From positions 1 through 44,318 of the forward strand of contig JAHCMG010000065.1 in the NCBI GenBank assembly GCA_019192585.1: 44,318 bases of DNA. The letters are read 5' to 3'. The notes below the pieces were generated by a model. It had not been told where the DNA came from. It made no database searches and saw only the letters and a program-made list of their open reading frames with translations. A program made the translations under genes and the position numbers. Of this stretch, positions 4,665 to 43,651 are shown one piece after another; position 1 is the first letter of the stretch; each line of letters begins with the position of its first letter. The stretch comes from Devosiaceae bacterium MH13. Its GTDB lineage: Bacteria > Pseudomonadota > Alphaproteobacteria > Rhizobiales > MH13.

Positions 4665-5573
4665 ATGGCCCGGTTCATTCCCTCGCTTTCGGCTTTGGTG
4701 GCGTTTGAAGCTGCGGTGACGCATCGCAACTTCACCCGCGCCGGCGAGAGCCTTGGGCTCACCCAAAGCGGCATCAGCCGTCAGGTCAGCGCGCTCGAAA
4801 AGCAGCTCGGCGTGAAGATGTTCGAGCGGATCGGGCCGCGTCTCATCCTGACTGATGAGGGCAGCAGCTACGCGCAAGCCGTCACCGAGACCCTCAACCG
4901 GCTGGAGGAAGCCTCCATCGATCTGGTGCGTGGCGGCAGCTCGCGCGATGCACTGAAGATCGGGGTTCAGGACAGTTTCGGCGGCCAGTGGCTTGTTGCC
5001 CGGATCAAGCGGTTCGTCGCGGCGCATCCCAATGCTGGCTTCACGATGGTGCCGGTGACCTCCGACACCGCCTTTCGCGACCAAGAGGTGGACGTTGCGG
5101 TGCTGCGCGGGATTGGGGCCTGGCACGATGCCCATGCGCATCATTTGTTGGATGAACAGGTGTGCGTGGTCGCCTCGCCCGAGCTTATCCCGTCGGGGGA
5201 GCAGCTTGCGCCGAGCGACTATCACCGCTTCCCGCTGATCCAGAACGCGCACCGGCCAGACAGTTGGCTGCGCTGGCTCGAAGCCAAGGGGCTGTCTCGG
5301 CAGGACACGATTTCCGGGCCGCGTTTTTCGCAGACCACCATGGTGATCGAAGCCGCGCGTACCGGCCTGGGCCTCGCTGTCGTGCCGACGGTGATGATCG
5401 AAGACAAGCTCGCCGATGGCAGTTTGCACATGCCGCTCGGCGGGCCGATCCCCAGCGGGCAGAGCTATTCGGTTGTCTATCCGCTGGCGCTTGGAAAATC
5501 GAAGGCGGTGCTGCAGTTCCACGACTGGGTTTTGGCTGAAGCGCGGCAAGCCAAGCAAAAGGCCAGCGCTTAG
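4662..5573 (+). CDS. LysR-type regulator, GcvA-like
   Basis: LysR-family regulator of 303 residues, clearly paralogous to the LysR at 3148 (same PSL-AL--FE opening, helix-turn-helix with SLGLTQSGISRQVSALEKQL, and GLGLAVVPTVMIED in the effector domain). A second ATG at 4665 is equally possible. It diverges from the Lrp gene and converges on the DadA-like gene with only 10 bases between stops. Its target is not obvious; candidates are the divergent Lrp gene or the ThDP/flavoenzyme operon downstream. Confidence 0.88.
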   Translation: MMARFIPSLSALVAFEAAVTHRNFTRAGESLGLTQSGISRQVSALEKQLGVKMFERIGPRLILTDEGSSYAQAVTETLNRLEEASIDLVRGGSSRDALKIGVQDSFGGQWLVARIKRFVAAHPNAGFTMVPVTSDTAFRDQEVDVAVLRGIGAWHDAHAHHLLDEQVCVVASPELIPSGEQLAPSDYHRFPLIQNAHRPDSWLRWLEAKGLSRQDTISGPRFSQTTMVIEAARTGLGLAVVPTVMIEDKLADGSLHMPLGGPIPSGQSYSVVYPLALGKSKAVLQFHDWVLAEARQAKQKASA

Positions 5574-6913: not shown

Positions 6914-8668
6914 TTAGAGAAACGCCACGTCTTTCGCGTCTAAGTCGAGCGGGTCTTCGCCCTTCTTGGTCAGCCATGAATAGACCGGCGGCACGCGTTC
7001 GGCGATCGATTCAACGTGAACATCAATGAAGCATGGCGCGCGGGTATGCGCGAAGGCTTCGGCCAGCGCGGCGTCGAACTGATCAGCGGTCTTGGCGGTC
7101 CAGGACTTGAGATCGAACGCTTCGGCGATGGCTTGCCCGCGTGGCGGCGTGAAGTCGACCCCGAAGCACTGGTTGTGGCCTTTGAGCCGGTGCAGGCCCT
7201 TGATCCAGCCGAAATGGCCATTGTTGAACAAGATCAAGATGGCAGGGACCTGAAGGCGGACGAGCGTTTCGAGTTCGCCGACGGTCATGCCGAAGGATCC
7301 ATCGCCAAACAGGCCGATCGGGCGCTTTGTCGGGTCGGCGCGCCAGGCGCCCACGGTGGCGGGCAGTGCGGAGCCGAGCCCTCCAAAGGCGCGCGGAATG
7401 GCGAAGCGTGTGGCCGGATCGTTGATCTTCAAAAACCGCGTCATGTGCGGCGTTGGGGTGCCGGCATCGGAATAGATCAGCGCCGGTGCGCCGGAGGCTT
7501 CTAGCGCCTCGTTGAAGCACCGCACCGCGCGCTCAGGGCGCAGGGGCACGCTGTCGTTGGTCAGAAGGCTTTGCGCGCCACGCCAGAAACGGCCTCGCAG
7601 ATCGTTGAGATGGGCAATCCACGGCTCGTGACTGGCCGTGTCGAAGCCCTCGGGCACGGCGGCGAGCAAGTCTTGCAGCACCAGTTTCGCATCGCCCACG
7701 ATCGAGGTCACGTTCTCGTAATTGTTGGCCATGATCTCGGGGTTGATGTCGATCTGCGCGACCCGCTTGTTCAGCGTCACTTTGGGAAAGGTCCAGCCGA
7801 TGGTCACGACCGAGCCCATGCGCGAGCCAACGAACAAGACGAAGTCGCTTTCTTCCATCGAGCGGTTGGCATGCGGATGGAAGCCATTGTCGCCGATAAC
7901 GCCAATCGAGAGCCGGTGATCATCGGGCATCGTGCCCTGGCCCGTCATGGTGGTGCAAACCGGGATGTTTAGCCGTTCGGCGACAGCCAAAATGTCGCTG
8001 CCGGCGCAGGCCCGAATGACACCGCCACCGGAGACGATGAGGGGCCGCTCGGCTTTGTCGAGCGCATCGATGAGCCCTTCAACCAGGCCCGGAGCGGGCC
8101 GGGTCGCGAACGCGGGAAAGGTTTTGCACTCATCTTCAACATGCAGCGAGACGGTCGCTGGATCGACCGATTTGAGCAATATATCTTCGGGGATTTGCAG
8201 GTGCACGGCGCCGGGTTTGCCCGAACAGGCAACGCGGAACGCGCGGCGAATGATCTCGGGCAGCTTCTCGGTCGCCTTCACCTGGATCGACATTTTGGTG
8301 ACGGGCTCAAACAGCTTGGCGCAATCAAGCTCCGTCAAAACGCCGCGCCCTTCCCCGGGCAGCGGGATATCGATGGTGAGCAGGATGACAGGCACGCTTG
8401 AGGCGTTCGATTCCGCAATCGGCGGCAGAGAGTACATCGCGCCGGCGCCCGACGGGCACTCCACCACGCCGGGCTTATCGGTGAAGCGGCCATAAGCATC
8501 GGCCATGAACCCCGCCGAGCGCTCGTCGCGCGCCATCACATGGATGATCTCGTCTTCATGGTCCTGAAGGGCTTCGTAGAACGGCACATTGGTGTCGCCG
8601 GGAACGCCAAACACGGTCTCAACGCCGTAGCCGATGAGCATCTTCACCAGAATATCAGCGCCGTTCAT
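6914..8668 (-). CDS. Thiamine diphosphate-dependent enzyme, IlvB/POX-like
   Basis: ThDP-dependent enzyme of 584 residues with the three-domain acetolactate synthase/pyruvate oxidase layout. The N-terminal PYR domain contains FGVPGDTN and the catalytic Glu in DERSAGFMADAYG (about residue 49). The central domain is around 190-340, and the C-terminal domain has the ThDP motif from GDGSFGM to the closing ILFNN. The ATG at 8668 was chosen because AAGGA lies six bases upstream; a GTG one codon earlier is too close. It is not a biosynthetic acetolactate synthase by context, as no small subunit is nearby. Likely function is decarboxylation or carboligation of a 2-oxo acid, perhaps one made by the DadA-like enzyme encoded next. 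Substrate unknown. Confidence 0.82.
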   Translation of the reverse strand: MNGADILVKMLIGYGVETVFGVPGDTNVPFYEALQDHEDEIIHVMARDERSAGFMADAYGRFTDKPGVVECPSGAGAMYSLPPIAESNASSVPVILLTIDIPLPGEGRGVLTELDCAKLFEPVTKMSIQVKATEKLPEIIRRAFRVACSGKPGAVHLQIPEDILLKSVDPATVSLHVEDECKTFPAFATRPAPGLVEGLIDALDKAERPLIVSGGGVIRACAGSDILAVAERLNIPVCTTMTGQGTMPDDHRLSIGVIGDNGFHPHANRSMEESDFVLFVGSRMGSVVTIGWTFPKVTLNKRVAQIDINPEIMANNYENVTSIVGDAKLVLQDLLAAVPEGFDTASHEPWIAHLNDLRGRFWRGAQSLLTNDSVPLRPERAVRCFNEALEASGAPALIYSDAGTPTPHMTRFLKINDPATRFAIPRAFGGLGSALPATVGAWRADPTKRPIGLFGDGSFGMTVGELETLVRLQVPAILILFNNGHFGWIKGLHRLKGHNQCFGVDFTPPRGQAIAEAFDLKSWTAKTADQFDAALAEAFAHTRAPCFIDVHVESIAERVPPVYSWLTKKGEDPLDLDAKDVAFL

Positions 8669-27660: not shown

Positions 27661-29618
27661 CTATTCGGCGGGGTGTTCGAGCATGAACATCGGGCCGCCG
27701 CGCCAGCGCGGGAACCCATAGCCATTGACCATCACCACATCGACGTCTTCGGGGCGCCGCGCGATGCCTTCGGCAAGAATGGCGCGCGCTTCGCTTTGCA
27801 TGGCATCGATAATGCGCTTGGTGATCTCGGCTTGCGAGATAGGATTGCGGGTTACGTTCTTGGCTTTGGCGTTTAGCAGCACCAGCTCTTCAACCCAAGG
27901 AGACTTGGTCGCCTTGCCGTCCACATAGTCGTACCAGCCCTTGCCGTTCTTGCGGCCAAACCGGTCCGCCTCGCACAGCTTATCGCCGAGATCGACATAG
28001 CGCTGGTTGGGGTCGCGGGTGGCCGCCTGGCGCTTGCGGGTCGCCCACGAAATGTCGAGCCCAGCAAGGTCCTGCATTTCGAAGATGCCCATGGGAAAGC
28101 CGAAGGCCCGCATGGCTTCATCGACATCCCAGGGCATGGCGCCGTCTTCAACCATATATTCGCACTCGCGGCGGTAGGCCGACATGATGCGGTTGCCGAT
28201 AAAGCCCTCGCAGACGCCCGAAGGCACAGCGATCTTTTTGAGGCGCCGGCCCAGGGCGAAGCCCATCGCCGCGGCGTGGGGGGAGACGCCGTCGGGGAGA
28301 ACCACTTCGAGAAGCTTCATAATGTGGGCGGGCGAAAAGAAGTGCAGCCCGATCACGCGCTCGGGATGGGCTGTGCTCGCCGCCAGCTGGGCAATGTCGA
28401 GGTACGACGTGTTGGTCGCAATGACAGCCTCGGGCCCGACGGCGGCATCAATGGCGCTGAGCACGCCCGCCTTGACGTCCATGTCTTCAAAAACGGCCTC
28501 GATGATCAGCTGCGCATCGGCCAGTGCGCTGTAGCTGGTCGAACAGGTGAGCCGGCCCAGCGCCGCTTGCAGGGCCGCGTCATCCAAAAGACCGCGGCGG
28601 TGGCTGTCCGACAGAATGCCGGTGATCCGGGTCTTGCCCGCCTCTAAGGCGTCCTCGTCGCGCTCGATGAGCGACACGTCGAGGCCGGCAAGAAGGCACG
28701 CCGCGGCGATGCCAGCACCCATGGTGCCGCCGCCGATCACCCCGATCTTGGTGAGGCTTTCCACTTTGATGTCTTTGAGTTCGGGCAGCTTCCCGCTCGA
28801 GCGTTCAGCGAAGAAGATGTGGCGCAGGGCGGCGCATTGCGGGTCGGCCTTTAGGTCGAGGAACGTTTTGCGCTCGGCGGCCAGTGCATCCTTGGCGGGC
28901 AAGCGGAGCGCGTTGAGCACCGCCTCGATGGCGGCCGATGGCGCCTTGGTTCCCTTAGCGCGCTTGCGGGTGCTCTCGGCCCGGCGCTCCAGGGCATCGT
29001 AGTCGGCGCCGCCCAGCGGTTGACGCTGGGCCAATGGTTGCGGCAGGGGCGCGGCCTTGATGGCGTGGGCGAAGGTTTGGGCCGCGTCGGTCAGGTCACC
29101 GCTGACCATCTTGTCGATCAGCCCCCATTGCATCGCCTTGTCGGCACCTATGGGTTTGCCGCCAGCGACCATGGTCAGCGCGTGATCGGCAGCGATCAGC
29201 CGAGGCAGCCGAACTGTGCCGCCAGCGCCGGGGATCAGGCCGAGCGTCACTTCGGGCAAGCCAAGCGATGTGCTCTCGTCCGCCAACCGATAGTGGCAGC
29301 CCAAGGCAAGCTCGAGCCCGCCACCGAGCACGGTGCCATGCAGCGCGGCGACCCAAGGCTTGCTGGTCGCTTCGATGGCAAGCACCACATCGGCGAGAAC
29401 CGGTTCGATCGGTGGCTTGTCGAACTCGCGCACATCGGCGCCCGCGGTGAAGGTGCGGCCCGCGCCGCGTAGGACCACCGCGCCGACCTCAGAATCCGCT
29501 TCGGTGCGGGCAATGGCGTCCATCAGGCCGGATCGGACGGCGTGGCTCGCCGCGTTTACCGGCGGATTGTCGATGGTGACGATGGCCAGGCCATCGTGCG
29601 TCTCAACGCTGACAGCCA

Positions 29619-29619
<1 letters not shown>
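27661..29619 (-). CDS. Bifunctional enoyl-CoA hydratase / 3-hydroxyacyl-CoA dehydrogenase
   Basis: FadJ/FadB-like multifunctional protein of 652 residues. The N-terminal crotonase domain (about 1-190) has the oxyanion-hole segments RTFTAGADVREF and LHGTVLGGGLELALG. A linker of about 90 residues leads to the NAD-binding hydroxyacyl-CoA dehydrogenase domain starting at IGVIGGGTMGAGIA (near 295). The C-terminal domains end with RWRGGPMFMLEH. It would convert crotonyl-CoA via 3-hydroxybutyryl-CoA to acetoacetyl-CoA, or act on longer enoyl-CoAs. It overlaps the glutaryl-CoA dehydrogenase gene as TAATG, and glutaryl-CoA dehydrogenase yields exactly its substrate, crotonyl-CoA. Confidence 0.93.
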
Positions 29620-30848
<1,229 letters not shown>

Positions 30849-30910
30849 GTCTGACTCCCTAGCGGCTTTGCCTATCAATACCGTCTGACAAAATACTTCA
30901 ATATTAAAAT

Positions 30911-30925
30911 ATTTCAACTTGAAAT
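30911..30925. promoter_or_regulatory. Perfect palindrome in gcdH / anthranilate divergent promoter region
   Basis: ATTTCAA-C-TTGAAAT is a perfect inverted repeat inside a conspicuously AT-rich 125-base gap. Another TTCAA half-site lies at 30897-30901, and AAATATTT at 30907-30914 is also palindromic. TTGAAA at 30919-30924 could be a -35 element for the rightward operon, with TACGTT 17 bases on as a weak -10, so a bound repressor would block it. The MarR protein encoded in the operon is the natural candidate (inference). Confidence 0.6.
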
Positions 30926-30979
30926 GTTTTTTTTCCTGCTCTACGTTTTTCGTCAGATCAACGCAAAGGAGCGATGTGG

Positions 30980-33274
30980 ATGCGCATTGCGTGCCTAGGT
31001 GGCGGCCCGGCGGGCCTGTATTTTGGGATTTCGATGAAGCTGCGCGACCCCAGCGCGCAAGTCGATGTTCTCGAGCGCAACCGCGCCGATGACACCTTCG
31101 GCTGGGGCGTTGTTTTGTCCGATGAAGCGCTCGGCAACCTTGCGGCCAACGACCCGGTCAGTGCTCAAACCATTCGCGACAACTTCGCCTATTGGGATGA
31201 TGTTGCGCTGGTCCATGACGGCAAGCGCACCGTGTCGAGCGGCCACGGGTTTTGCGGCATTGGGCGCCACAAGCTTTTGCTGATCTTGCAAGCGCGGGCC
31301 CGTGAGCTTGGCGTCAATCTTCACTTCGAGCAGGAAGTCGACAGCGCCTCGGCCTACATGGATGATTATGACCTAGTCATCGCGGCCGACGGCCTGAACT
31401 CGAAGACGCGCAACGAGTTTGCAGACATCTTCAAGCCGCAGATCGATCAGCGGCTGTGCCAATTCGTGTGGCTTGGAACGCACCAGAAATTCGATGATGC
31501 GTTCACTTTCATCTTCGAGCAGACCGACAAGGGCTGGCTTTGGGCGCACGCCTACCAGTTCGACGATGAGACAGCGACGTTCATCGTCGAGTGCTCGCAG
31601 TCGACCTTCGATGCCTATGGCTTTGGCGAGATGAGCCAAGCCGAATCCATCGCGGTGTGCGAAGAGATCTTCAAGGATCATCTTGGCGGCCATCCGCTGA
31701 TGACCAACGCGAACCATATTCGCGGCTCGGCCTGGCTGCGCTTCCCGCGCGTTCTTTGCGACAAATGGAGCCACAAGAACGTGGTGCTGATGGGCGACGC
31801 GGCGGCGACCGCGCATTTCTCCATCGGCTCTGGCAGCCGGCTCGCCATGGAGAGTGCGATCGCGCTTGCGGAGTATCTGCAAAGCGAGCCCGATCTGGAG
31901 ACTGCACTGGAGCGCTATGAAAGCGAGCGGCGCCTTGAGGTGCTGCGCTTGCAATCCGCGGCGCGTAACTCGCTTGAATGGTTCGAGAACGTGGAGCGCT
32001 ATCTCGACCTTGATAGCGTTCAGCTGAACTATTCGATGCTAACCCGCTCGCAGCGGATCAGCCACGAAAACCTGCGTGCGCGCGACAAGCAGTGGCTTGA
32101 AAGCGCCGAGCGCTGGTTCATGGAGCAGGCGGGCGCCGGCTCCAATGCCCCCGTTCGTCCGCCCATGTTCGCGCCCTTCAAGCTGCGCGACATGGAGCTC
32201 AAGAACCGCATCGTCGTCTCGCCGATGGCGCAATACAAGGCGGTCGATGGCTGCCCGACGGACTGGCACCTGATCCATTACGGCGAACGTGCCAAAGGCG
32301 GCGCCGGGCTCGTCTATACCGAGATGACATGCGTATCGGCGGACGGTCGGATCACGCCGGGTTGCCCGGGCCTGTATACCCCCGAGCACGAAGCCGCATG
32401 GGCGCGCTTGACGCAGTTTGTGCACGCTGAGACCGAGGCCAAGATCTGCTGTCAGATCGGCCATGCCGGTCGCAAAGGCTCCACCCGGATCGGGTGGGAG
32501 GGCATGGACCAACCGCTTGAAAGTGGCAACTGGCCGCTGATGTCCGCGTCGCCGATCGCGTGGTCGGACGACAATGCGGTGCCCCAAGAGATGACCACCG
32601 AACAGATGGCCGCGGTGAAGGACGAGTTCGTCGCCGCAGCCCAAATGGCAGAGCGCGCCGGGTTCGACATGATCGAACTGCACGCCGCGCACGGCTATCT
32701 GCTGTCGTCGTTCATCTCGCCTGTGTCGAACCATCGCCAGGATGCCTATGGCGGCAGCCTCGAGAACCGCATGCGCTACCCGCTTGAGGTGTTTGCAGCG
32801 GTGCGCGCCGTTTGGCCCGAGCACAAGCCGATGGCGGTGCGCATCTCGGCGAGCGACTGGGTGGGCGACGAAGGCATCACCGCCGAAGACGCCGTTGCAA
32901 TCGCCGACATGTTCTCGGCGGCCGGCGCGGACATTATTGATGTGTCGGCGGGGCAAACCTCAACTGAGGCACGGCCCGTCTACGGCCGCATGTTCCAGAC
33001 CCCGTTCTCCGATCGCATTCGCAACGAGCGCGGGATCAAGACCATGGCGGTCGGCAACATTACCGAGCCGGACCATGTGAACTCGATCCTGATGGCCGGA
33101 CGGGCGGATCTCGTCTGCCTCGCGCGACCGCATCTGAGCGACCCCTATTGGACGCTGCGCGCAGGGACGTCGCTGGGCGATCGGCTGGAAGCCTGGCCGA
33201 AGCCTTATGCGGCGGGCCGCGACCAGGCCTGGCGGCTTGCCGACAAAGAACTTGAAATGGCAGGGCGCGCATGA
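30980..33274 (+). CDS. abmA: 2-aminobenzoyl-CoA monooxygenase/reductase (fused flavoprotein)
   Basis: Fusion of two flavoproteins, 764 residues. Residues 1 to about 390 form a class A flavin monooxygenase (salicylate hydroxylase-like: [12 protein letters not shown] at 4-15, and the GD motif at about 272 in [16 protein letters not shown]). Residues about 395-764 form an old-yellow-enzyme reductase ([23 protein letters not shown] at 568-571, [10 protein letters not shown]). This architecture is that of the Azoarcus evansii enzyme, which hydroxylates and then reduces 2-aminobenzoyl-CoA to 2-amino-5-oxocyclohex-1-ene-carboxyl-CoA. The ATG at 30980 was chosen: AAGGAG is 8 bases upstream, whereas an ATG six bases earlier would leave only two. 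First gene of a long operon; overlaps the next as ATGA. Confidence 0.93.
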
Positions 33275-34008
33275 GGCGTGTGCTTGTCACCGGTGGCGGG
33301 TCTGGCATCGGCCGGGCCATCGCGCGTGCGTTTGCCGCCGAAGGTGACGCGGTGACGATCTGCGGGCGGCGCCTCGACGCGTTGGAAGAGACCGCCGAGG
33401 GCCATGCCATGACGGCGCTACAAGCCGACATGACCGACGAGGCCTCCGTCGACGCGCTATTCGAACAGCCCTTCGATGTGGTGGTTGCCAATGCCGGCAT
33501 CGCGCGCACCGCCAAGCTGGTCGACCTATCCCTGTCCGATTGGAACGAGACGCTCGCGGTGAGCCTAACCGGCGTGTTTCTGACTTTTCGCGGCGCACTC
33601 CGGAGCATGGGCCAAGGTGGCAACATGAGCCAAGGTGGGCGTCTGATCGCGATCGCTTCGACCGCCTCGCTGCAAGGCGGCGCCACGCTGAGCGCTTATG
33701 CCGCCGCGAAGCACGGCGTGCTGGGCCTGGTGCGTTCGACGGCGAAAGAGGTCGCCAAGGCCGGCATCACCTGCAACGCGATCTGCCCGGGCTTTGTTGA
33801 CACTGACCTGGCGGCCGGCGCCGCCCAGGGGGTCGCCAAGAAGTTCGGCGTCGATGAACCGAAGGCCATGGACATGGTGGTGGCGGCCAACCCCATGCGC
33901 CGCCTGATCGCGCCCGAAGAAGTGGCGGCGACCGCGCTGTTTCTCGCATCGGCCGGCGCCGCGTCCATCAACGGCCACGCGCTCAGTGTCTCAGGGGGAG
34001 AGATATGA
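33271..34008 (+). CDS. SDR-family 3-hydroxyacyl-CoA dehydrogenase of anthranilate operon
   Basis: Classical short-chain dehydrogenase of 245 residues: TGGGSGIG at 7-14, NAG at 74-76, catalytic Ser130/133, Tyr143 and Lys147 (SAYAAAKHG), and the PG turn in [10 protein letters not shown]. In the Azoarcus pathway a hydroxyacyl-CoA dehydrogenase acts after ring reduction; this protein fits that role, so it likely reduces or oxidises a cyclic or opened oxo/hydroxy CoA intermediate with NAD(P). Residues 113-124 contain a tandem hexapeptide ([12 protein letters not shown]) encoded by a near-perfect 18-base duplication just before strand beta5. ATGA overlaps join it to both neighbours. Confidence 0.88.
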
Positions 34009-34481
34009 AGACCGCACCCTCGCACCTGCCACTTGAAGAGCCATCCAAGGAACGGCTGCGGCTGTGGCTGCGCATGCTGAAATCGACGCGGCTGATTGAA
34101 GCCACGCTGCGCGGGAAGTTCCGCGACGATTTCAACACGACGCTTCCGCACTTCGATGTGCTGGCCGCGCTGTCGCGGTTCGATGATGGGCTCAAGATGC
34201 ACCAGATTTCGGGCATGTTGCGCGTCTCAAACGGTAGCGTGACAGGCATTGTCGATAAGCTCGCCGAGAGCGGCATGCTGGTACGCGTTCCGGTGCCCGG
34301 TGACCGCCGCGCCACACGCGTGCAGCTGACCCGCAAGGGCCGCGAGGAGTTCAAGCGCCAGGCGGACGCTCACGAGGCCTGGATCTCCGAACTGCTTGCC
34401 GACTTCTCCGCCGAAGAGGCCCGGACATTGGCAGGCGAGTTGAACCTCACCGAGCCGCAAATGGCGGGCGCCGATGGCTGA
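34005..34481 (+). CDS. MarR-family regulator of the anthranilate operon
   Basis: MarR-type winged-helix regulator of 158 residues. The DNA-binding part (about 50-110) reads [23 protein letters not shown] with a basic wing ([14 protein letters not shown]). A MarR-like gene is also part of the Azoarcus evansii 2-aminobenzoate clusters. It probably represses the operon until an aryl-CoA thioester such as 2-aminobenzoyl-CoA binds, and its candidate site is the palindrome at 30911-30925. It is encoded inside the operon, overlapping both neighbours, so its dose follows operon expression. Confidence 0.88.
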
Positions 34482-35277
34482 GGCCCCAACCCATTTCCGC
34501 TGCTCAGTGGCGGCCAACGGGGTGGCGACGGTTGCCCTTGATCGGCCCGACCGCAAGAACCCGCTGACCTTCGAAAGCTATGCCGAGCTGCGCGATTGGT
34601 TCCGCGCGCTGCCCTATGATGACGATGTAAAGGCCGTCATCTTCGCCTCCAATGGCGGCAATTTCAGCTCGGGCGGCGATGTGCACGACATTATCGGCCC
34701 GCTGACCAAGATGAGCATGAAGGAGCTTCTCGCCTTCACGCGGATGACCGGCGACTTGGTCAAAGCCATTGTGAATTGCGGCAAGCCGGTGATCGCCGCG
34801 ATTGACGGCATCTGCGTTGGGGCAGGCGCGATCATCGCGATGGCGTCGGACATGCGGATCGCCACGCCGGGCGCCAAATGCGCCTTCCTGTTCACCCGTG
34901 TTGGCCTTGCTGGCTGCGACATGGGCGCTTGCGCGATTCTACCGCGCCTCATCGGGCAAGGACGTGCGGCTGAGCTTCTGTACACCGGCCGGTTCATGAC
35001 CCCCGAAGAAGGCGAGCGCTGGGGCTTTTACAACCAGCTTGTCGAAGCCGATGCCCTCGATGGCGCTGCCGATGAGGTGGCTGCGCAAATCGCGGCGGGA
35101 CCGAACTTCGCGCACATGATGACCAAGACCATGCTCGCGCAGGAATGGTCGATGTCGATCGAGCAGGCGATCGAGGCGGAAGCGCAAGCGCAGGCCATCT
35201 GCATGCAGACCCAAGACTTCACCCGGGCCTATGACGCGTTCGTCGCCCGGCAGAAACCGGTTTTTGAGGGCGACTGA
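34474..35277 (+). CDS. Enoyl-CoA hydratase/isomerase of anthranilate operon
   Basis: Crotonase-family protein of 267 residues. The oxyanion-hole segments are [16 protein letters not shown] (about 52-68) and [20 protein letters not shown] (about 109-128); the family Glu positions around 130-150 are not obviously the canonical pair, as the segment reads [20 protein letters not shown]. Crotonases with CDMGA in this position are seen in aromatic-CoA pathways. Predicted role: hydration or isomerisation of a cyclic enoyl-CoA produced from 2-aminobenzoyl-CoA. It overlaps MarR by eight bases and the next gene as TGATG. Confidence 0.87.
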
Positions 35278-36434
35278 TGGCGGACCGGACCTACCTCGAC
35301 TGGCCCTTCTTTGACGACGAGCATCGCGCTTGGGCTGCCGAGGTGGAAGCCGTGGCCGCCACCTTGCCCAACCATCACGGTGACACAGACGCTGCCTGCC
35401 GCCAGCTTGCGACGCTGCTGGGCAAGGCTGGCCTGTTGCAGCCAACCGCCAGCGCGGACGGTTCGCTCGACGTGCGCAAACTGTGCTTGGCGCGTGAGAT
35501 CTTGGCGCGGCACAACGGCTTGGCTGACTTCTGTTTTGCCATGCAGGGGCTCGGCACGGGCGCGATCTCGCTGTTTGGCACCGACGCGCAGAAGGCCGCC
35601 TGGCTGCCCAAGGCGCAAGCGGGCGAGGCCATCGCCGCCTTTGCGCTCACCGAGCCCGGCTCCGGCTCAGACGTTGCCAACAACACCATGACCGCCACGC
35701 GCGACGGGGACAGCTATGTCCTCAATGGCGAGAAGACCTGGATCTCCAATGGCGGGATTGCAGACGTCTATACCCTGTTTGCCCGCACCAACGAACAGCC
35801 TGGCGCCAAGGGCATGTCAGCCTTTGTGTTCACCCCCGATGCCGCGGGTTTCGAGATCGTAGAGCGGCTTGAGACCATCGCGCCCCATCCGCTGGCGACC
35901 TTGCGGTTCACCGATGTGCGCATCCCCGCGAGCGCGATGATCGGCACGTGCGGCCAGGGCTTCAAAATCGCGATGTCGGTTCTCGATGTCTTTCGTTCGA
36001 CCGTCGCTGCCGCAGCGCTGGGCTTCGCACGCCAGGCGCTCGATGCGGCGCTGGAGCGGGTGGTGACCCGCAAAGTCCAAGGCGCGGCCCTATCGGAACT
36101 GCAGATGGTGCAGGGCCACATTGCCGACATGGCGCTCGATATCGATGCCAGCGCCCTGCTGATCTACCGCGCCGCCTGGACCCGCGACAATGGCGCGAGC
36201 CGTGTGACGCGCGAAGCGGCCATGGCCAAACTGTTCGCCACCGAGCAGGCACAAACCGTCATCGACAAGGCTGTCCAGCTGTTCGGCGGCGATGGCGTCA
36301 AGTCTGGCACGACAGTTGAAAGGCTCTACCGCGAGATCCGGGCACTGCGCATCTACGAAGGCGCGACGGATGTCCAAAAAGTCGTCATCGCCAGGCAGTG
36401 CCTGAAGAGTTTTGAAGGAGCGGCCGCATGCTAG
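35277..36434 (+). CDS. Acyl-CoA dehydrogenase of anthranilate operon
   Basis: FAD acyl-CoA dehydrogenase of 385 residues with [19 protein letters not shown] and [19 protein letters not shown] as flavin/substrate contacts and the catalytic Glu361 in [17 protein letters not shown]. It belongs to the same superfamily as GcdH in this window but is clearly distinct (shorter, with a different N-terminus). In the anthranilate pathway it would desaturate a reduced ring or ring-opened CoA ester ahead of the hydratase. It overlaps the ligase gene by seven bases (ATGCTAG). Confidence 0.9.
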
Positions 36435-38050
36435 GTTCATCCGCCCATACCGACACATTCGCCCGGGACAATCTGCCGGCCGCATCGGACTGGCCTGAGC
36501 TTCTGCTCGATGGGTTCGACTACCCAGCCACGCTGAACGTTGGGCACGAATTGACCGATGCGATGGTGGCGCGCGGCTTTGGTGACAACACCGCGTTGAT
36601 CGGCAATGGACGCCAGCGAACCTACAAGGAGCTGACCGATTGGACCAATCGGCTCGCCAACGCGCTGGTCGACGATATCGGTGTGCAGCCCGGCAACCGG
36701 GTGCTCATCCGCTCGGCCAACAATCCGGCCATGGTCGCCTGCTGGCTCGCAGCCACGAAGGTCGGCGCCGTGGTGGTCAACACCATGCCGATGCTACGCG
36801 CGGGCGAACTGGCGAAATATGTCGACAAGGCCGAGATCCAGTTCGCGCTGTGCGACACGCGGTTGATGGACGAGATGGAGGCCTGCGCGCAGGATAGCGC
36901 CTTCCTCAAGCGCGTCGTTGGCTTTGACGGCACCTCAAACCATGACGCGGAACTCGACCGGCTTTCGCTCGAAAAGTCCGTGCAGTTCGACGCGGTAAAG
37001 ACCAGCAGTGACGATGTGGCGCTGCTCGGTTTCACGTCTGGGTCGACCGGTGAGCCGAAGGCGACGATGCACTTTCATCGCGACCTTCTGATCATCGCTG
37101 ACGGCTACGCGAAGGAAATCTTGCAGGTCGAGCCAAGCGATGTGTTTGTCGGCTCGCCTCCGCTGGCCTTCACGTTTGGGCTGGGCGGCTTGGCGATCTT
37201 CCCGCTGCGCTTTGGCGCCACGGCGACCTTGCTCGAGCAGGCTTCGCCGCCCAACCTCATCGAGATCATCGAGAAATACGGCGCGACGGTGTGCTTCACC
37301 GCGCCGACGGCGTACCGGGTGATGCTGCGGGCCATGGAGGATGGCGCGAACCTATCATCGCTCCGTGCCGCCGTGTCGGCGGGCGAGACGCTGCCCAAGC
37401 CGGTCTATGATGACTGGATCAAGCAGACCGGTAAGCCGATGCTCGATGGTATCGGCGCCACAGAGCTCCTACACATTTTCATCTCCAACCGCTTCGACGA
37501 CCACCGGCCGGCCTGCACCGGCAAACCCGTTGGGGGCTACGAAGCCAAGGTTCTCAAAGATGATGGGACCGAAGCACCGGTCGGCGAGATCGGACGGCTT
37601 GCGGTGCGCGGGCCAACGGGCTGCCGCTACCTCAATGACAGCCGCCAGGCCGACTATGTCGACGGCGGATGGAACCTGACCGGCGACTGTTTCAGCAAGG
37701 ACGAAGAGGGCTACTTCCACTTCGCCGCCCGCAGCGACGATATGATCGTCTCAGCCGGCTACAACATCTCCGGCCCGGAGGTCGAGGCGGCGCTTTTGGC
37801 CCATGATGTCGTCGGTGAGTGCGCCGTCGTCGCGGCACCGGATACCGACCGTGGTCAGATCGTCGAAGCGCATATCGTGCTGACTGATCCCGCGCTCGCG
37901 AGCCCGGAGACCACGGAACTTCTGCAGGCGCATGTGAAGGCGACCATTGCGCCGTACAAATATCCACGGTCAATTCGCTATTGCTCAAGTCTGCCAAAGA
38001 CCCAGACGGGCAAATTACAACGCTTCAAGCTCAAGAAAGCGGAGCTCTAA
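36428..38050 (+). CDS. abmG: 2-aminobenzoate-CoA ligase
   Basis: ANL-superfamily acyl/aryl-CoA synthetase of 540 residues. The P-loop A3 motif is GFTSGSTGEPKATMHFHRD (around residue 200), the A5 region is DGIGATELLHIFIS, the hinge follows FAARSDDMIVSAGYN, and the catalytic lysine is Lys529 in PKTQTGKLQRF. It resembles benzoate and 2-aminobenzoate-CoA ligases. The fused monooxygenase/reductase in the same operon makes 2-aminobenzoate (anthranilate) the best substrate. It generates the CoA thioester at the expense of ATP to AMP, in the cytoplasm. Benzoate or another substituted benzoate cannot be excluded from sequence alone. Confidence 0.88.
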   Translation: MLGSSAHTDTFARDNLPAASDWPELLLDGFDYPATLNVGHELTDAMVARGFGDNTALIGNGRQRTYKELTDWTNRLANALVDDIGVQPGNRVLIRSANNPAMVACWLAATKVGAVVVNTMPMLRAGELAKYVDKAEIQFALCDTRLMDEMEACAQDSAFLKRVVGFDGTSNHDAELDRLSLEKSVQFDAVKTSSDDVALLGFTSGSTGEPKATMHFHRDLLIIADGYAKEILQVEPSDVFVGSPPLAFTFGLGGLAIFPLRFGATATLLEQASPPNLIEIIEKYGATVCFTAPTAYRVMLRAMEDGANLSSLRAAVSAGETLPKPVYDDWIKQTGKPMLDGIGATELLHIFISNRFDDHRPACTGKPVGGYEAKVLKDDGTEAPVGEIGRLAVRGPTGCRYLNDSRQADYVDGGWNLTGDCFSKDEEGYFHFAARSDDMIVSAGYNISGPEVEAALLAHDVVGECAVVAAPDTDRGQIVEAHIVLTDPALASPETTELLQAHVKATIAPYKYPRSIRYCSSLPKTQTGKLQRFKLKKAEL

Positions 38051-38051
38051 A

Positions 38052-38288
38052 ATGATCTGTGTTTTCGTTCAAATACAGTGCAAACCCGGAAGCACGTACG
38101 ATGTGGCGAATAAACTATCCTGGGATGAAAAATACTCAGAAATGTATTCAACCAGCGGCGAGTTTGACCTTCTTTTGAAGATCTATGTCCCGAAGACAGA
38201 AGATATCGGTCGATTCATAAGCGACAATATAAGTCAGATCGACGGAATAGAAAGAACACTAACAACAATCGCATTTTCTGCTCACTAG
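38052..38288 (+). CDS. Stand-alone Lrp/AsnC ligand-binding (RAM) domain, low-GC gene
   Basis: Small protein of 78 residues comprising only the RAM (regulation of amino-acid metabolism) domain of Lrp/AsnC proteins: a MICVFVQIQCKPG strand, YSTSGEFDLLLKIYV core and GIERTLTTIAFS end strand. It has no DNA-binding helix-turn-helix. It starts one base after the ligase stop and ends 15 bases before the transporter binding-protein gene, so it is a true operon member. My count gives 97 G+C in 237 bases (about 41%), versus about 65% in adjacent genes; it uses many AT-rich codons (AAA, ATA, ACA). It may bind an aromatic or amino-acid ligand as a sensor or partner of a full-length Lrp protein. Confidence 0.85.
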   Translation: MICVFVQIQCKPGSTYDVANKLSWDEKYSEMYSTSGEFDLLLKIYVPKTEDIGRFISDNISQIDGIERTLTTIAFSAH

Positions 38289-38303
38289 AAACAGGAGGGA
38301 GTA

Positions 38304-39440
38304 ATGAACAAGCTTTTGATAACGGCGGCTGCAGCTGCTGTGCTGATGCAAGCGCCGCAAGCCTTGGCCGAGGTCAAGGTTGGGATGATCACAACACTGT
38401 CGGGTGGCGGTGCTGGCATCGGGCTCGATGTTCGCGACGGCTTTATGCTGGCCATAGAACAGTCTGGCCGCGACGATATTGAAGTCGTGATCGAAGACGA
38501 TCAGCGGCGCCCGGACCTCGCGGTGCAGCTGTCCGACCGGCTGATCCAGTCTGAGCGTGTGGACGTGATGACGGGCATCATCTGGTCCAACCTTGCCATG
38601 GCCGTCATTCCCGGGGCCGTTGCGCAGAACGTGTTCTACCTGTCGCCCAATGCTGGCCCCTCGCCGCTTGCCGGCCGGGCCTGCAACCAGAACTATTTCA
38701 ACGTCGCCTGGCAGAACGACAACCTGCATGAAGCCGCCGGCGCCTATGCGAACAGCGCCGGCTACGGCAACAGCTTCATCCTGGCGCCAAACTATCCCGC
38801 CGGCACCGACGCGCTGACCGGCTACAAGCGCATCTATGAAGGCGATCTGGCCGGTGAAGTGTTCACCCAACTGGGCCAGACCGACTATGCCGCAGAAATC
38901 GCCCAGATCCGTGCCAGCGGCGCGGACAGCGTGTTCTTCTTCTTGCCTGGCGGCATGGGGATTTCCTTCCTCAAGCAATATGCCGACAGCGGCGTCGATA
39001 TCCCGGTGATCGGCCCGGCGTTCAGCTTCGACCAGGGCATCCTGCAAGCGGTTGGCGATGCGGCGCTTGGCGTGGTGAACACTTCGCAGTGGAACAAGGA
39101 CATCGACAACCCGACCAACGCCGCGTTCGTCGAGTCGTTTGTCGAAGCGTATGACCGTTTGCCATCGCTCTATGCGAGCCAGGGCTTTGATACGGCGAAC
39201 CTTCTGCTGTCGGCCCTAGAGGTCGCCGAACCGTCGGATGCGGATGCCTTCCGCGACGCGCTTCGGGCCGCCGATTTCGACAGCACCCGTGGGCCGTTCG
39301 AATTCGGGGCCAACCACCATCCGATCCAGACGATCTACGCCCGCGAAGTCGTCCAAGAAGGTGACATCTTCACCAACCGGATCATCGGTGTCGCGCTTGA
39401 AAACCACTCCGACGCCTACGTTGGCGACTGCCAAATGTAA
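38304..39440 (+). CDS. Branched-chain/aromatic ABC transporter substrate-binding protein
   Basis: Periplasmic type I solute-binding protein (LivJ/Peripla_BP_6 family), 378 residues. The signal peptide MNKLLITAAAAAVLMQAPQ has cleavage near ALA-EV. The mature start KVGMITTLSGGGAGIGLDVR and later DDQRRPDLAVQLSDRLI are typical of the family. Homologues in aromatic-degradation operons bind benzoate-type acids rather than leucine, and an ABC binding protein is part of the Azoarcus anthranilate cluster. Strong ribosome site AGGAGGGAG. The downstream gap contains a stable hairpin that could keep its transcript level above the membrane subunits. Confidence 0.92.
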   Translation: MNKLLITAAAAAVLMQAPQALAEVKVGMITTLSGGGAGIGLDVRDGFMLAIEQSGRDDIEVVIEDDQRRPDLAVQLSDRLIQSERVDVMTGIIWSNLAMAVIPGAVAQNVFYLSPNAGPSPLAGRACNQNYFNVAWQNDNLHEAAGAYANSAGYGNSFILAPNYPAGTDALTGYKRIYEGDLAGEVFTQLGQTDYAAEIAQIRASGADSVFFFLPGGMGISFLKQYADSGVDIPVIGPAFSFDQGILQAVGDAALGVVNTSQWNKDIDNPTNAAFVESFVEAYDRLPSLYASQGFDTANLLLSALEVAEPSDADAFRDALRAADFDSTRGPFEFGANHHPIQTIYAREVVQEGDIFTNRIIGVALENHSDAYVGDCQM

Positions 39441-39456
39441 GCGGTCCTCGCGACCC

Positions 39457-39482
39457 TCCCCTTGCCCCACCGGGGCAGGGGG
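39457..39482 (+). promoter_or_regulatory. Intercistronic GC hairpin between binding protein and permease genes
   Basis: GCCCC-ACC-GGGGC forms the core of a stem continued (one T bulge) by TCCCC/GGGGG. It starts 16 bases after the binding-protein stop and is not followed by a T-run. Such hairpins between binding-protein and permease genes commonly stabilise the upstream mRNA segment or cause partial termination. Confidence 0.5.
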
Positions 39483-39496
39483 AACCTGGAGTTCCC

Positions 39497-40417
39497 ATGT
39501 CCACGATCCTGATAGTTGAACAGGTCCTCAACGGCCTCCAGCTGGGCGTCATGCTTTTTCTCATGGCGGCCGGGCTCACGCTGATCTTCGGCGTGATGGG
39601 GCTGATCAACCTTGCCCATGGCTCGCTGTACATGGTGGGGGCTTTCGCCGCGGCCGCTGTTGCCGGGGCGACGGGATCGTTTCTGCTCGCGCTGATGGCC
39701 GCGCTTGGCGCAGCCGCGCTTGCGGGCGTTTTGATCGAGATGGTCGTGATCCGAAGGCTCTACAAAGCCGCCCATCTCGACCAGGTGCTGGCCACCTTTG
39801 CGCTGATCCTGATCTTTTCTGAAGGCACGCGCTGGGTGTTCGGCTCGTTTCCTTTGTTCCTCGATGTGCCCGACGCCCTCTCAGGGCCGGTGACCTTGCC
39901 GGGCGGCATCGAATATCCGCTTTACCGGCTGACGCTGATCGCGATTGGGCTAGCCGTGGCCGTGGGTTTGTGGGCGCTCGTTGAGCGTACCCGCCTGGGC
40001 GTGCAGATCCGAGCGGGCGAGAACGACCGCGAGATGATCGCCGCCCTCGGCATCGATATCTCGAAGCTCTACACGCTGGTCTTCGCGCTCGGCGCAGCGC
40101 TTGCCGGCCTTGCGGGCGCTTTGGTTGGCGCCATCCAATCGGTACAGGTTGGCATGGGCGAACCGGTGCTGATCCTGGCCTTCGTGGTGATCGTGATCGG
40201 CGGCATTGGCTCGATCCGCGGCGCCTTCATCGGCGCGATCCTAGTGGGCCTTACCGACACGCTTGGCGGGGTGTTCCTGCCTGAATTGTTCAAACTGTTC
40301 ATGGAGACCGGCGCCGCCCAGCAAGCGGGCTCGGCCATCGCCTCCATGGGCATCTACATTTTGATGGGATTGGTCCTCGTGTGGCGGCCGACCGGCCTGT
40401 TCGGAGCACGCGGATGA
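39497..40417 (+). CDS. livH: LivH-type ABC transporter permease
   Basis: Inner-membrane permease of 306 residues with about eight hydrophobic segments, beginning LQLGVMLFLMAAGLTLIFGV and including the LivH hallmark GLINLAHGSLYMVGAF. The coupling region to the ATPases is near ENDREMIAALGIDISKLYTL. It pairs with the next gene product to form the membrane channel for the acid captured by the binding protein. The stop overlaps the livM start as ATGA. Confidence 0.94.
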   Translation: MSTILIVEQVLNGLQLGVMLFLMAAGLTLIFGVMGLINLAHGSLYMVGAFAAAAVAGATGSFLLALMAALGAAALAGVLIEMVVIRRLYKAAHLDQVLATFALILIFSEGTRWVFGSFPLFLDVPDALSGPVTLPGGIEYPLYRLTLIAIGLAVAVGLWALVERTRLGVQIRAGENDREMIAALGIDISKLYTLVFALGAALAGLAGALVGAIQSVQVGMGEPVLILAFVVIVIGGIGSIRGAFIGAILVGLTDTLGGVFLPELFKLFMETGAAQQAGSAIASMGIYILMGLVLVWRPTGLFGARG

Positions 40418-41400
40418 GGCTCAACGAGACCTATATCAACGCAGCCGTTCTGATCGGTCTGCTGGTGGTACCGCTATGGGCGGTGATGGTCGATGAGCCC
40501 TTCACCATCACCCTTGCAACCAAGGCGGTGATCCTCGCGCTGGCCGCCGTAGGCCTGAACCTGATCCTCGGCATTGGCGGCATGGTCAGCTTCGGCCACG
40601 CGCTGTTTTTCGGCCTCGGTGGATACGCGATGGGCATCCTTGCCTATCACGCGCAGACCTTCACGATGCTGGACCTTGGCCTGTTTTCGACCGGCGGCAC
40701 CAAGATGATGCCGATCATCTGGCTGGTCGCGATTGCGGTGTCGGCGGTGATCGCGTTTTTGATGGGCCAGTTGGTGCTGCGCACCGGCGGCGTCTACTTC
40801 ATCATGATCACGCTCGCGTTCGCGCAGATGTTCTACTACTTCTCGATCTCCTGGTCGCAATATGGCGGCGAGGATGGCCTGTCGATCTATGTGCGCAACG
40901 AGTTCCCCGGGCTCAACACGCTCGATCCCATCCAGTTTTTCGGCATCTGCTTTGCCATCCTGTGCGTGGTGCTGCTGCTGTTCTCGCGGCTGCAAACCTC
41001 GCCCTTTGGGCTGGCCCTGAACGCCACGCGGCAGACCGCCAAGCGCGTCGAGACCGTCGGTCTCAACCCGATGCATCTCAAGCTGGTTGCCTTCGTCTTG
41101 TCGGGCGCGATCACCGGGCTGGCCGGCGCGATGTTCGCTGACCTCAACCGCTTCGTCTCGCCAACCATGTTTAGCTGGCACCTGTCGGGCGAGTTGATCA
41201 TCTTGATCATTATTGGCGGCGTGGGCCGCCTGATGGGGCCCGTGATTGGCGCGTGCATCTTTGTGGTGCTTGAGCACTTCCTGGGCGGCCTGACGACCTA
41301 CTGGCACATCTTCTTGGGCCTGATCATGCTGGCGATCGTGTTCTTCGCGCGCGGCGGGGTAATCGGTCTGTTGACCGGCAAGGAGGGGGCACATGTCTGA
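40414..41400 (+). CDS. livM: LivM-type ABC transporter permease
   Basis: Second inner-membrane permease, 328 residues, many hydrophobic segments. Family motifs are LNLILGIGGMVSFGHALFFG and LRTGGVYFIMITLAFAQMFYYF; the coupling-helix region is LNATRQTAKRVETVGLNP. The ATG at 40414 was chosen because it overlaps the livH stop by four bases; a start 11 codons earlier lies deeper inside livH. Partner of livH, fed by the two ATPases encoded next. Confidence 0.94.
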   Translation: MRLNETYINAAVLIGLLVVPLWAVMVDEPFTITLATKAVILALAAVGLNLILGIGGMVSFGHALFFGLGGYAMGILAYHAQTFTMLDLGLFSTGGTKMMPIIWLVAIAVSAVIAFLMGQLVLRTGGVYFIMITLAFAQMFYYFSISWSQYGGEDGLSIYVRNEFPGLNTLDPIQFFGICFAILCVVLLLFSRLQTSPFGLALNATRQTAKRVETVGLNPMHLKLVAFVLSGAITGLAGAMFADLNRFVSPTMFSWHLSGELIILIIIGGVGRLMGPVIGACIFVVLEHFLGGLTTYWHIFLGLIMLAIVFFARGGVIGLLTGKEGAHV

Positions 41401-42162
41401 CCAAGTGCCTCAACCCGACGGACAGCCCGTTCTGGCGACGCACGGCCTCAACAAGGCCTTTGGCGCGTTGCAAGCCACGTCCGATGTGTCGATCGACCTG
41501 CGGGCGGGCGAAATCCACGCCATTATCGGCCCCAATGGGGCGGGCAAGTCGACCCTTATCAATCAGATCTCCGGCGGGCTTGCGCCGGATTCGGGCCGCA
41601 TTGAGTTTCTTGGCCGCGATATCTCCGCCCTGCCGGCGCAAGCGCGTGCCAAGGCGGGGCTGGGCCGCACGTTCCAGATCTCGCAGCTGTGCATGGAAGA
41701 TACGGTGCTCGAAAACACCGTTCTGGGCGCCATCGGCGAGACCCAGGGTGTTTGGCAGTTTTGGCGGCCGGCGCTTAAGACCGCCGACCTGATCGCCCGC
41801 GCCGAAGCCGCGCTCGAACGGGTTGGCTTAATCGCCGAAAGAGACGTGACCTGCGCCAATCTCAGCCACGGGCAGCGCCGCCAGCTTGAAGTGGCCGTGG
41901 CGCTGACACTGTCCCCCAAGGCGTTCATCATGGATGAGCCAATGGCGGGTCTCGGCGCTGCCGGCTCGAAGAACCTTACCGGCTTTCTCGATGGCCTGCG
42001 CCAAGAAGCGCCGATCTTGCTCGTCGAACACGACATGGACGCGGTGTTCGCGCTCGCAGACCGCATCAGCGTGCTCGTCTACGGCAAGATCATCGCCACG
42101 GGCACGGTCGACGAGGTGCGCAGCAGCAAAGAGGTCCGCGAAGCCTATCTCGGAGAGGCGGC

Positions 42163-42166
<4 letters not shown>
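41393..42166 (+). CDS. livG: LivG-type ABC transporter ATPase
   Basis: Cytoplasmic ATPase of 257 residues with Walker A GPNGAGKSTLI, signature LSHGQRRQLEVAVAL and Walker B FIMDEPMAGLG, plus the LivG-type VEHDMDAVFALADRISVLVYG. The LivG-specific GRTFQISQLCMEDTVLENT segment is present. It overlaps livM by eight bases and livF by four. Confidence 0.94.
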
Positions 42167-42848
<682 letters not shown>

Positions 42849-42849
<1 letters not shown>

Positions 42850-43259
42850 TGGTGTTCGAGATGCCGCAAAAGGTGATGTTCAAGCACTGCGACCCGGCGG
42901 GGATCGTGTTCTATCCGCGCTATTTCGAGATGATGAACGACTGTGTTGAAGCGTTCTTCGATGTGGTGCTCGGCACGCCGTTTGAGCGCCTGCACGGGTC
43001 GGGCCGCGCGGTGCCAACGGCACAGATCGAGACCCGCTTTCTCGCGCCCAGCCGCCATGGCGACCCGCTGGTGCTCCAGCTGGTCGTCACCGCCGTGGGC
43101 AACAGTTCCATGCAGTTTGCGATGACCGCCCTGTGCGACGATGAAAAACGCTTCGAGACACGCTCGACGCTTGTCCACACCAACGAACGCGGACGGCCCT
43201 CGCGATGGCCCGATGAGCTCCGCACAAAACTACAATCCTGTCTGGGAGACGCCTCATGA
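42849..43259 (+). CDS. 4-hydroxybenzoyl-CoA-type thioesterase
   Basis: Hot-dog-fold thioesterase of 136 residues. The catalytic Asp15 lies in HCDPAGIVFYPRYFEMMND, the signature of the Pseudomonas-type 4-hydroxybenzoyl-CoA thioesterase family. Its probable role is housekeeping: releasing CoA from stalled or non-productive aryl-CoA esters, such as 2-aminobenzoyl-CoA, or hydrolysing a late intermediate. Linked by TGATG and ATGA overlaps to its neighbours. Confidence 0.9.
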
Positions 43260-43651
43260 CCCACCGAACGATCCATCCCGACGGTTGGGCGTCGGCGGTT
43301 GGCTATGCCAACGGCATGTTGAGCAAGGACGGCACGCTACAGATCGCTGGCCAGATCGGCTGGGACGGCGACAAGAAGTTCGTCGACGGTGGCTTCGTGC
43401 CACAGATGAAGCAGGCACTCAAAAACATCGTCGCCGTCGTTGAAGCGGCCGGCGGCACAGCCAGCGACGTGACGCGGCTGACCTGGTTCGTCACCGACAA
43501 GCAAGAGTATCTGGCGCACCAGCGCGAGGTGGGCGAAGCCTATCGCGAGGTGTTCGGCAAACACTTCCCCGCCATGTCGATGGTTGTTGTCTCGGCGCTC
43601 GTTGAAGATGAGGCGGTGGTCGAGATCGAAGCGACCGCTTTCGTGCAATGA
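43256..43651 (+). CDS. RidA/YjgF-family protein lacking the canonical arginine
   Basis: Rid-family protein of 131 residues, presumably trimeric and cytosolic. The fold markers LQIAGQIGWDGD (28-39), QALKNIVAVVEAAGG (53-67), TWFVTDKQEY and the C-terminal VEIEATAF are present. The arginine that binds the substrate carboxylate in RidA deaminases (pattern YPTRSCVQV in the E. coli protein) is replaced: here the segment is FPAMSMVVV, with Met107 at the Arg position. A member of this family, then called a putative translation inhibitor, belongs to the Azoarcus anthranilate cluster. A plausible role is hydrolysis of the enamine/imine CoA intermediate to release ammonia; this is inference. Confidence 0.88.
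   Translation: MTHRTIHPDGWASAVGYANGMLSKDGTLQIAGQIGWDGDKKFVDGGFVPQMKQALKNIVAVVEAAGGTASDVTRLTWFVTDKQEYLAHQREVGEAYREVFGKHFPAMSMVVVSALVEDEAVVEIEATAFVQ

Follow-up and report, generated by a model that had tools for sequence, protein, structure and literature searches.

The 2-aminobenzoate (anthranilate) gene clusters of Azoarcus evansii were reportedly described by Schuehle et al. in 2001. The part of PMC4539516 that deals with 2-aminobenzoyl-CoA monooxygenase/reductase (ABM) gives the product of the enzyme as 2-amino-5-oxocyclohex-1-ene-1-carbonyl-CoA and assigns what comes afterwards to unspecified beta-oxidation, and an excerpt of PMC3534580 mentions C7H8O4-CoA, possibly cyclohexanedione-carboxyl-CoA, in anthranilate-grown Arthrobacter. 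On the side of regulation, the relevant section of PMC9795900 presents BadR as the MarR-type repressor of the bad-ali divergon in Aromatoleum sp. CIB and Rhodopseudomonas palustris.

The locus analysed here lies in a stretch of 44,318 nucleotides from Devosiaceae bacterium MH13 (contig JAHCMG010000065.1, positions 1 to 44,318), hereafter the window. Its gap at 30849-30979 exactly fills the space between the start codons of gcdH (30848, minus strand) and ABM (30980, plus strand), although an in-frame ATG upstream, at 30974, is an alternative ABM start with poorer spacing to the ribosome site. The features of the locus are as follows:

27661-29619, minus strand: FadJ-like enoyl-CoA hydratase / 3-hydroxyacyl-CoA dehydrogenase, behind gcdH
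29619-30848, minus strand: gcdH, glutaryl-CoA dehydrogenase (phmmer 632 bits to 3gnc, residues 19-408); only gcdH in the genome
30890-30917, minus strand: candidate gcdH promoter TTGAAA-16-TATTTT, inside the operator; consensus match 9/12, weak
30901-30896 (TTGAAG), 16 bp, 30879-30874 (ATTGAT), minus strand: alternative gcdH promoter
30895-30925, no strand: bipartite operator ACTTCAATATTAAAATATTTCAACTTGAAAT, built of two 15-bp units, the outer arms being ACTTCAA and TTGAAAT; conserved in relatives
30911-30925, no strand: first-noticed palindrome, the promoter-proximal unit of the operator; unique in the genome with at most one mismatch
30919-30924, plus strand: putative -35 box TTGAAA of the ABM promoter, within the right arm of the operator
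30942-30947, plus strand: putative -10 box TACGTT of the ABM promoter, 17-bp spacer from TTGAAA
30980-33274, plus strand: ABM, 2-aminobenzoyl-CoA monooxygenase/reductase / salicylyl-CoA 5-hydroxylase family (NF006101, 1300 bits, cutoff 1078)
33271-34008, plus strand: SDR dehydrogenase of the ABM operon
34005-34481, plus strand: MarR-family regulator, proposed operator binder; third operon gene, with a conserved wHTH and DRR wing (77 sequences)
34474-38050, plus strand: enoyl-CoA hydratase, acyl-CoA dehydrogenase and aryl-CoA ligase of the ABM operon
38052-43651, plus strand: operon continuation with Lrp/AsnC-domain ORF, branched-chain-type ABC transporter, thioesterase and RidA

ABM is a two-domain flavoprotein of NF006101 whose halves resemble VioD and XenA-type proteins, and its operon runs in the order ABM, SDR, MarR, enoyl-CoA hydratase, acyl-CoA dehydrogenase, aryl-CoA ligase, Lrp-domain ORF, ABC transporter, thioesterase and RidA. 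This context favours anthranilate (2-aminobenzoyl-CoA) over salicylate as the probable substrate, since the best solved relative of the ligase is anthranilate-CoA ligase 4wv3, genes for tryptophan dioxygenase (kynA) or kynureninase (kynU) flank the ABM operon in 34 of 80 relatives, and RidA is encoded in the operon. TDO had no match in the window's own genome. The three genus-mates searched are without full-length ABM and without a close MarR, and the window ABM shares 81% identity with proteins of Rhodobacteraceae, which makes the ABM operon (30980-43651) patchy and perhaps horizontally acquired. Elsewhere in the window's genome, a second flavin monooxygenase ORF of about 400 aa resembles the N-terminal (VioD-type) part of ABM, with 42% identity over residues 1-381 (L272, G000:C38:13088-14203).

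The bipartite operator and its putative promoters

The GC content of the gap is about 38%, compared to about 63% in its surroundings. The preliminary description regarded it as the only strongly AT-rich gap of the region; it is indeed AT-rich, but 38051-38303 is nearly as AT-rich, even though that stretch encodes the Lrp/AsnC ORF. The latter (38052-38288) consists of an Lrp/AsnC ligand-binding (RAM) domain alone, 78 aa long and with no DNA-binding domain attached, and relatives of it occur beside ABM operons in five loci (L007, L008, L028, L044 and L046) and near them in four (L059, L068, L071 and L083).

Three sequence features had first been picked out in the gap, the palindrome ATTTCAACTTGAAAT at 30911-30925, a TTCAA half-site at 30897 and the AT palindrome AAATATTT at 30907-30914, and all are present as noted. 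They had been taken as separate, but are in fact parts of one conserved element, and the extent first given for the site, the 15-bp palindrome, was wrong, the unit being 31 bp. That this palindrome might be the whole operator was considered and rejected, its left half not being conserved. The base that makes this palindrome perfect, C30915, is matched at that column in only 1 of 73 relatives, and the perfect palindrome therefore appears to be a local variant.

The consensus element spans 30-31 bp, ATTTCAAGCTTAAAA-(T)-wTTTnnrCTTGAAAT, and consists of two 15-bp units with an optional base between them. Reverse-complementing the first unit gives approximately the second, which makes the element as a whole a palindrome, and either unit alone is close to being one. 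For comparison, 80 homologous loci were collected, giving 81 ABM upstream regions including that of the window. The operator was found at a matrix score of at least 25 in 74 of these 81 regions (window included), and only two other sites reached this score among 2.3 million background positions of the same loci, of which one precedes gcdH in L039. The window operator scores 35.2 with a matrix from whose training the window was left out, compared to a best score of 15.8 in 2000 shuffles, and it is the sole site of its kind in the window's 3.16-Mb genome, counts across the whole genome resting on pattern searches. Judged by this conservation, the operator is almost certainly real.

In 72% of loci, versus 6% in shuffles, a TAnnnT lies 16-18 bp beyond the right-arm TTGAAA, and the proposed overlap of the palindrome with a possible -35 element was therefore upheld, the right arm corresponding to the -35 box. 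A conserved ABM promoter thus appears to have its -35 box inside the operator, an arrangement that would fit repression by blocking. For gcdH, TTGAAA-16-TATTTT (30917-30890) is the best minus-strand match in the window and depends on C30915; it is a weak candidate because it is not conserved among the other gcdH-linked loci. A TAnnnT follows the left arm in 11% of loci versus 6% by chance, and the gcdH side seems to have no clear conserved sigma-70 site. Back-to-back -35 boxes in both outer arms were also considered as a general design and rejected on these overall frequencies, although Thalassospira (TTGAAA-16-TAGAAT from the left arm, toward fadJ) and L009 fit it.

The MarR regulator and the reach of the operator

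The window MarR, whose closest solved relative is 3boq, is the third gene of the ABM operon and is therefore proposed to be autoregulated. Nearly all complete loci carry a MarR gene within the operon, and no other DNA-binding regulator is conserved there. In L055, L056 and L062, MarR is transcribed divergently from ABM with the operator between them (two operators in L055). In G105, a complete genome without ABM, an operator (L274:6883-6912) lies 42 bp upstream of a gene for a MarR 51% identical to that of the window, at the head of a MarR-kynA-kynU operon (tryptophan 2,3-dioxygenase and kynureninase); the element therefore appears to follow MarR, staying with it where ABM is gone. Such an arrangement could have arisen from loss of ABM and SDR in an ABM operon, the link between MarR and operator remaining unchanged. 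G105 seems to use MarR and operator for the conversion of tryptophan to anthranilate alone, and this genome suggests that 2-aminobenzoyl-CoA may not be the only inducer, anthranilate or a compound of the kynurenine pathway being possible instead.

Among close relatives, MarR divergence showed no correlation with operator score (rho 0.10), and the sites of more distant MarRs (L239-L244) are weak or unrecognisable. The system has the marks of the MarR type: a regulator encoded in the operon, a palindromic operator overlapping the promoter, and an operator that tracks the regulator in the absence of ABM (L274). The claim that MarR binds in the gap is thus supported by comparison in this form, with the site as the putative operator of the operon's own MarR, over the ABM -35 box. 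Binding of the operator by MarR is very likely, and repression of ABM is, with scarcely less assurance, the expected outcome.

Further sites were sought by pattern searches in 43 genomes and with the matrix. Unlinked operators precede genes of several kinds. Two Leisingera have one ahead of RidA, and a Sulfitobacter and a Paracoccus have one ahead of branched-chain-type substrate-binding genes. In Tritonibacter and Planktotalea the site stands in front of TRAP transporter (substrate-binding) genes, Planktotalea having a further one at a second ABM copy, and in L234 it stands in front of a different ABC substrate-binding gene. A matrix scan of 385 genomes of the class gave seven sites scoring at least 34, all at pathway loci, with other hits at or below 29. 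The operator therefore appears restricted to pathway genes, which makes operator-bearing genes, namely those for RidA, the FadJ-like protein and the dedicated GcdH, candidates for missing pathway steps, and its sequence should be usable for annotating anthranilate regulons across marine Alphaproteobacteria. Extra operator-like sites occur at L078:4747 and L036:15863 beside a flavin monooxygenase-like gene or a cupin gene with an AraC-type regulator, a monooxygenase/cupin/AraC set that also adjoins ABM in L012.

Probable control of gcdH and the anthranilate route

The window gcdH has full-length homology to solved GCDHs, with NTYEGTHD aligned (YEGT catalytic-glutamate motif). The fadJ-like gene behind it is, in about nine relatives, itself the divergent partner of ABM. 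The preliminary description had MarR co-regulating both arms, which is supported for the ABM arm and probable, with less certainty, for the gcdH arm, but does not hold as a general rule, the full operator being found at 0 of the 44 unlinked gcdH copies examined. These 44 copies would also be expected if the operator served the ABM promoter only and gcdH were a neighbour with an independent promoter, outside MarR control, as would the conservation of the right-arm promoter and not the left-arm one and the many loci that have the operator without a divergent gcdH. We nevertheless consider this unlikely. A single gap of 131 bp separates the two genes in the window, the operator lying 47 bp from the gcdH start codon, and a single operator in a single gcdH/ABM gap recurs in Ahrensia (L115, L116), L114, L117, L118 and L251. 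The linked gcdH copies form one clade (support 100/99), apart from the housekeeping copies, which stays with the operator, and four genomes with a linked gcdH carry a second or third gcdH. In Ahrensia, where A. marina and A. kielensis (L007/L008) share the divergon, one gcdH copy only was found. Where a reductive-dehalogenase-like gene stands between gcdH and ABM, in L039, a three-unit operator (5441-5486) precedes gcdH and a separate one (6917-6946) precedes ABM, and half-operator units are found before unlinked gcdH in two Nitratireductor (L130, L135). Co-regulation of gcdH looks like a trait of lineages with a linked, dedicated gcdH, the window included, and on this comparative footing the operator fairly likely controls gcdH in the window as well. 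The gene inserted in L039 (5557-6891; TIGR02486, 181 bits) has an operator copy on each flank; the gcdH-side copy also faces it and could serve it, and this reductive-dehalogenase-family gene might extend the regulon to halogenated anthranilates.

The operator might also be real but bound by a regulator encoded elsewhere (e.g., of the LysR, IclR or AraC type), with MarR acting at a different site. A partial element is kept in L080, whose operon is without MarR, as this would allow, but MarR is the sole DNA-binding regulator conserved in the operon, a genome devoid of ABM has the operator at the head of its MarR-kynA-kynU operon, and a palindromic operator over the -35 box is usual for MarR repressors, so that another binder is quite improbable. 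More radically, the palindromes could be chance features of an AT-rich promoter gap in which only the -35 box is functional. The window does contain 25 palindromes with 7-bp arms and loops of 0-3, and 3.8% of shuffles of the gap contain a palindrome with 7-bp arms; because such palindromes are this common, the 15-bp palindrome by itself is weak evidence. It is raised above chance by the score of the 31-bp element, more than twice the best from shuffles, and by the motif TTTCAANTTGAAA, which occurs once in the 3.16-Mb genome with one mismatch allowed. That the two units are conserved across 74 of 81 loci already refutes chance, whose probability is negligible. Comparison across the loci shows that the operator exists, is conserved, has a -35 box built in, is confined to pathway genes and goes with MarR.

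We therefore favour, as the probable reading of these sequences, a divergent control region at 30849-30979 whose core is the 31-bp operator for the MarR repressor (34005-34481), with ABM blocked at its -35 box, gcdH most likely shut along with it, and release by a pathway metabolite. The physical binding, repression, inducer identity and simultaneous control of gcdH that we infer would proceed as follows. Without inducer, one or two MarR dimers on the operator would cover the ABM -35 box and block RNA polymerase, and, as the gcdH promoter would read the opposite way from within or beside the operator, the same occupancy would most likely shut gcdH too. Accumulation of anthranilate, of its CoA thioester or of a related tryptophan metabolite would make MarR release the operator and allow joint expression of the gcdH-fadJ operon and the ABM operon, the latter including the genes for MarR, CoA ligase, transporter and RidA.

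If the gcdH arm is controlled too, glutaryl-CoA becomes an intermediate that can be tested for in a route poorly known in its later steps. RidA might hydrolyse the enamine to the C7H8O4-CoA compound, in line with the report of such a compound in anthranilate-grown Arthrobacter in the excerpt of PMC3534580. Hydrolytic ring opening would then give oxo- or hydroxy-pimelyl-CoA, which could proceed to glutaryl-CoA in parallel to the bad-ali/aab pathway (PMC9795900). The oxygen position would need a further reduction or dehydration step, and glutaryl-CoA is therefore attractive as an inference rather than a result; we put the chances of its lying on the anthranilate route at about even. The original proposal that glutaryl-CoA or crotonyl-CoA belongs to this route accordingly survives as a reasonable supposition from the operator-linked, dedicated gcdH. 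A bolder possibility, which we hold tentatively and with some doubt, is that a single MarR operator with a built-in -35 box governs an entire anthranilate regulon, from uptake and CoA activation through ABM, RidA deamination and ring opening to a dedicated glutaryl-CoA dehydrogenase; the lower aerobic 2-aminobenzoyl-CoA route would then run via RidA enamine hydrolysis, then glutaryl-CoA and crotonyl-CoA.

Comparison with known systems

A literature search returned nothing relevant on the operator sequence or on MarR together with 2-aminobenzoyl-CoA. The operator and the regulon appear to be new, while their kind, a MarR-repressed divergent catabolic control region, is known. The Azoarcus evansii 2-aminobenzoate clusters resemble this locus in combining anthranilate-CoA ligase and ABM, with the steps that follow ascribed to beta-oxidation (via PMC3534580 and PMC4539516), but the portions of these accounts that concern them do not describe an operator or MarR control. 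The auxin-catabolism regulators IadR/IacR likewise exert MarR control over indole-derived catabolism, and the iad loci end at anthranilate; however, the enzymes are different and the ligand is indole-3-acetate (PMC9613470), whereas the window MarR is closest to 3boq among solved structures. BadR is likewise a MarR repressor of CoA-thioester ring degradation; its operators overlap the -35 boxes of divergent catabolic promoters, and some clusters include gcdH, since pimelyl-CoA goes to glutaryl-CoA (PMC9795900). The BadR operator, in contrast, is CAATnnATTG or CAAN4TTG, of about 10 bp (PMC9795900), and neither pattern occurs within 30895-30925; the window has instead a 31-bp two-unit palindrome, and ABM as its upper pathway.
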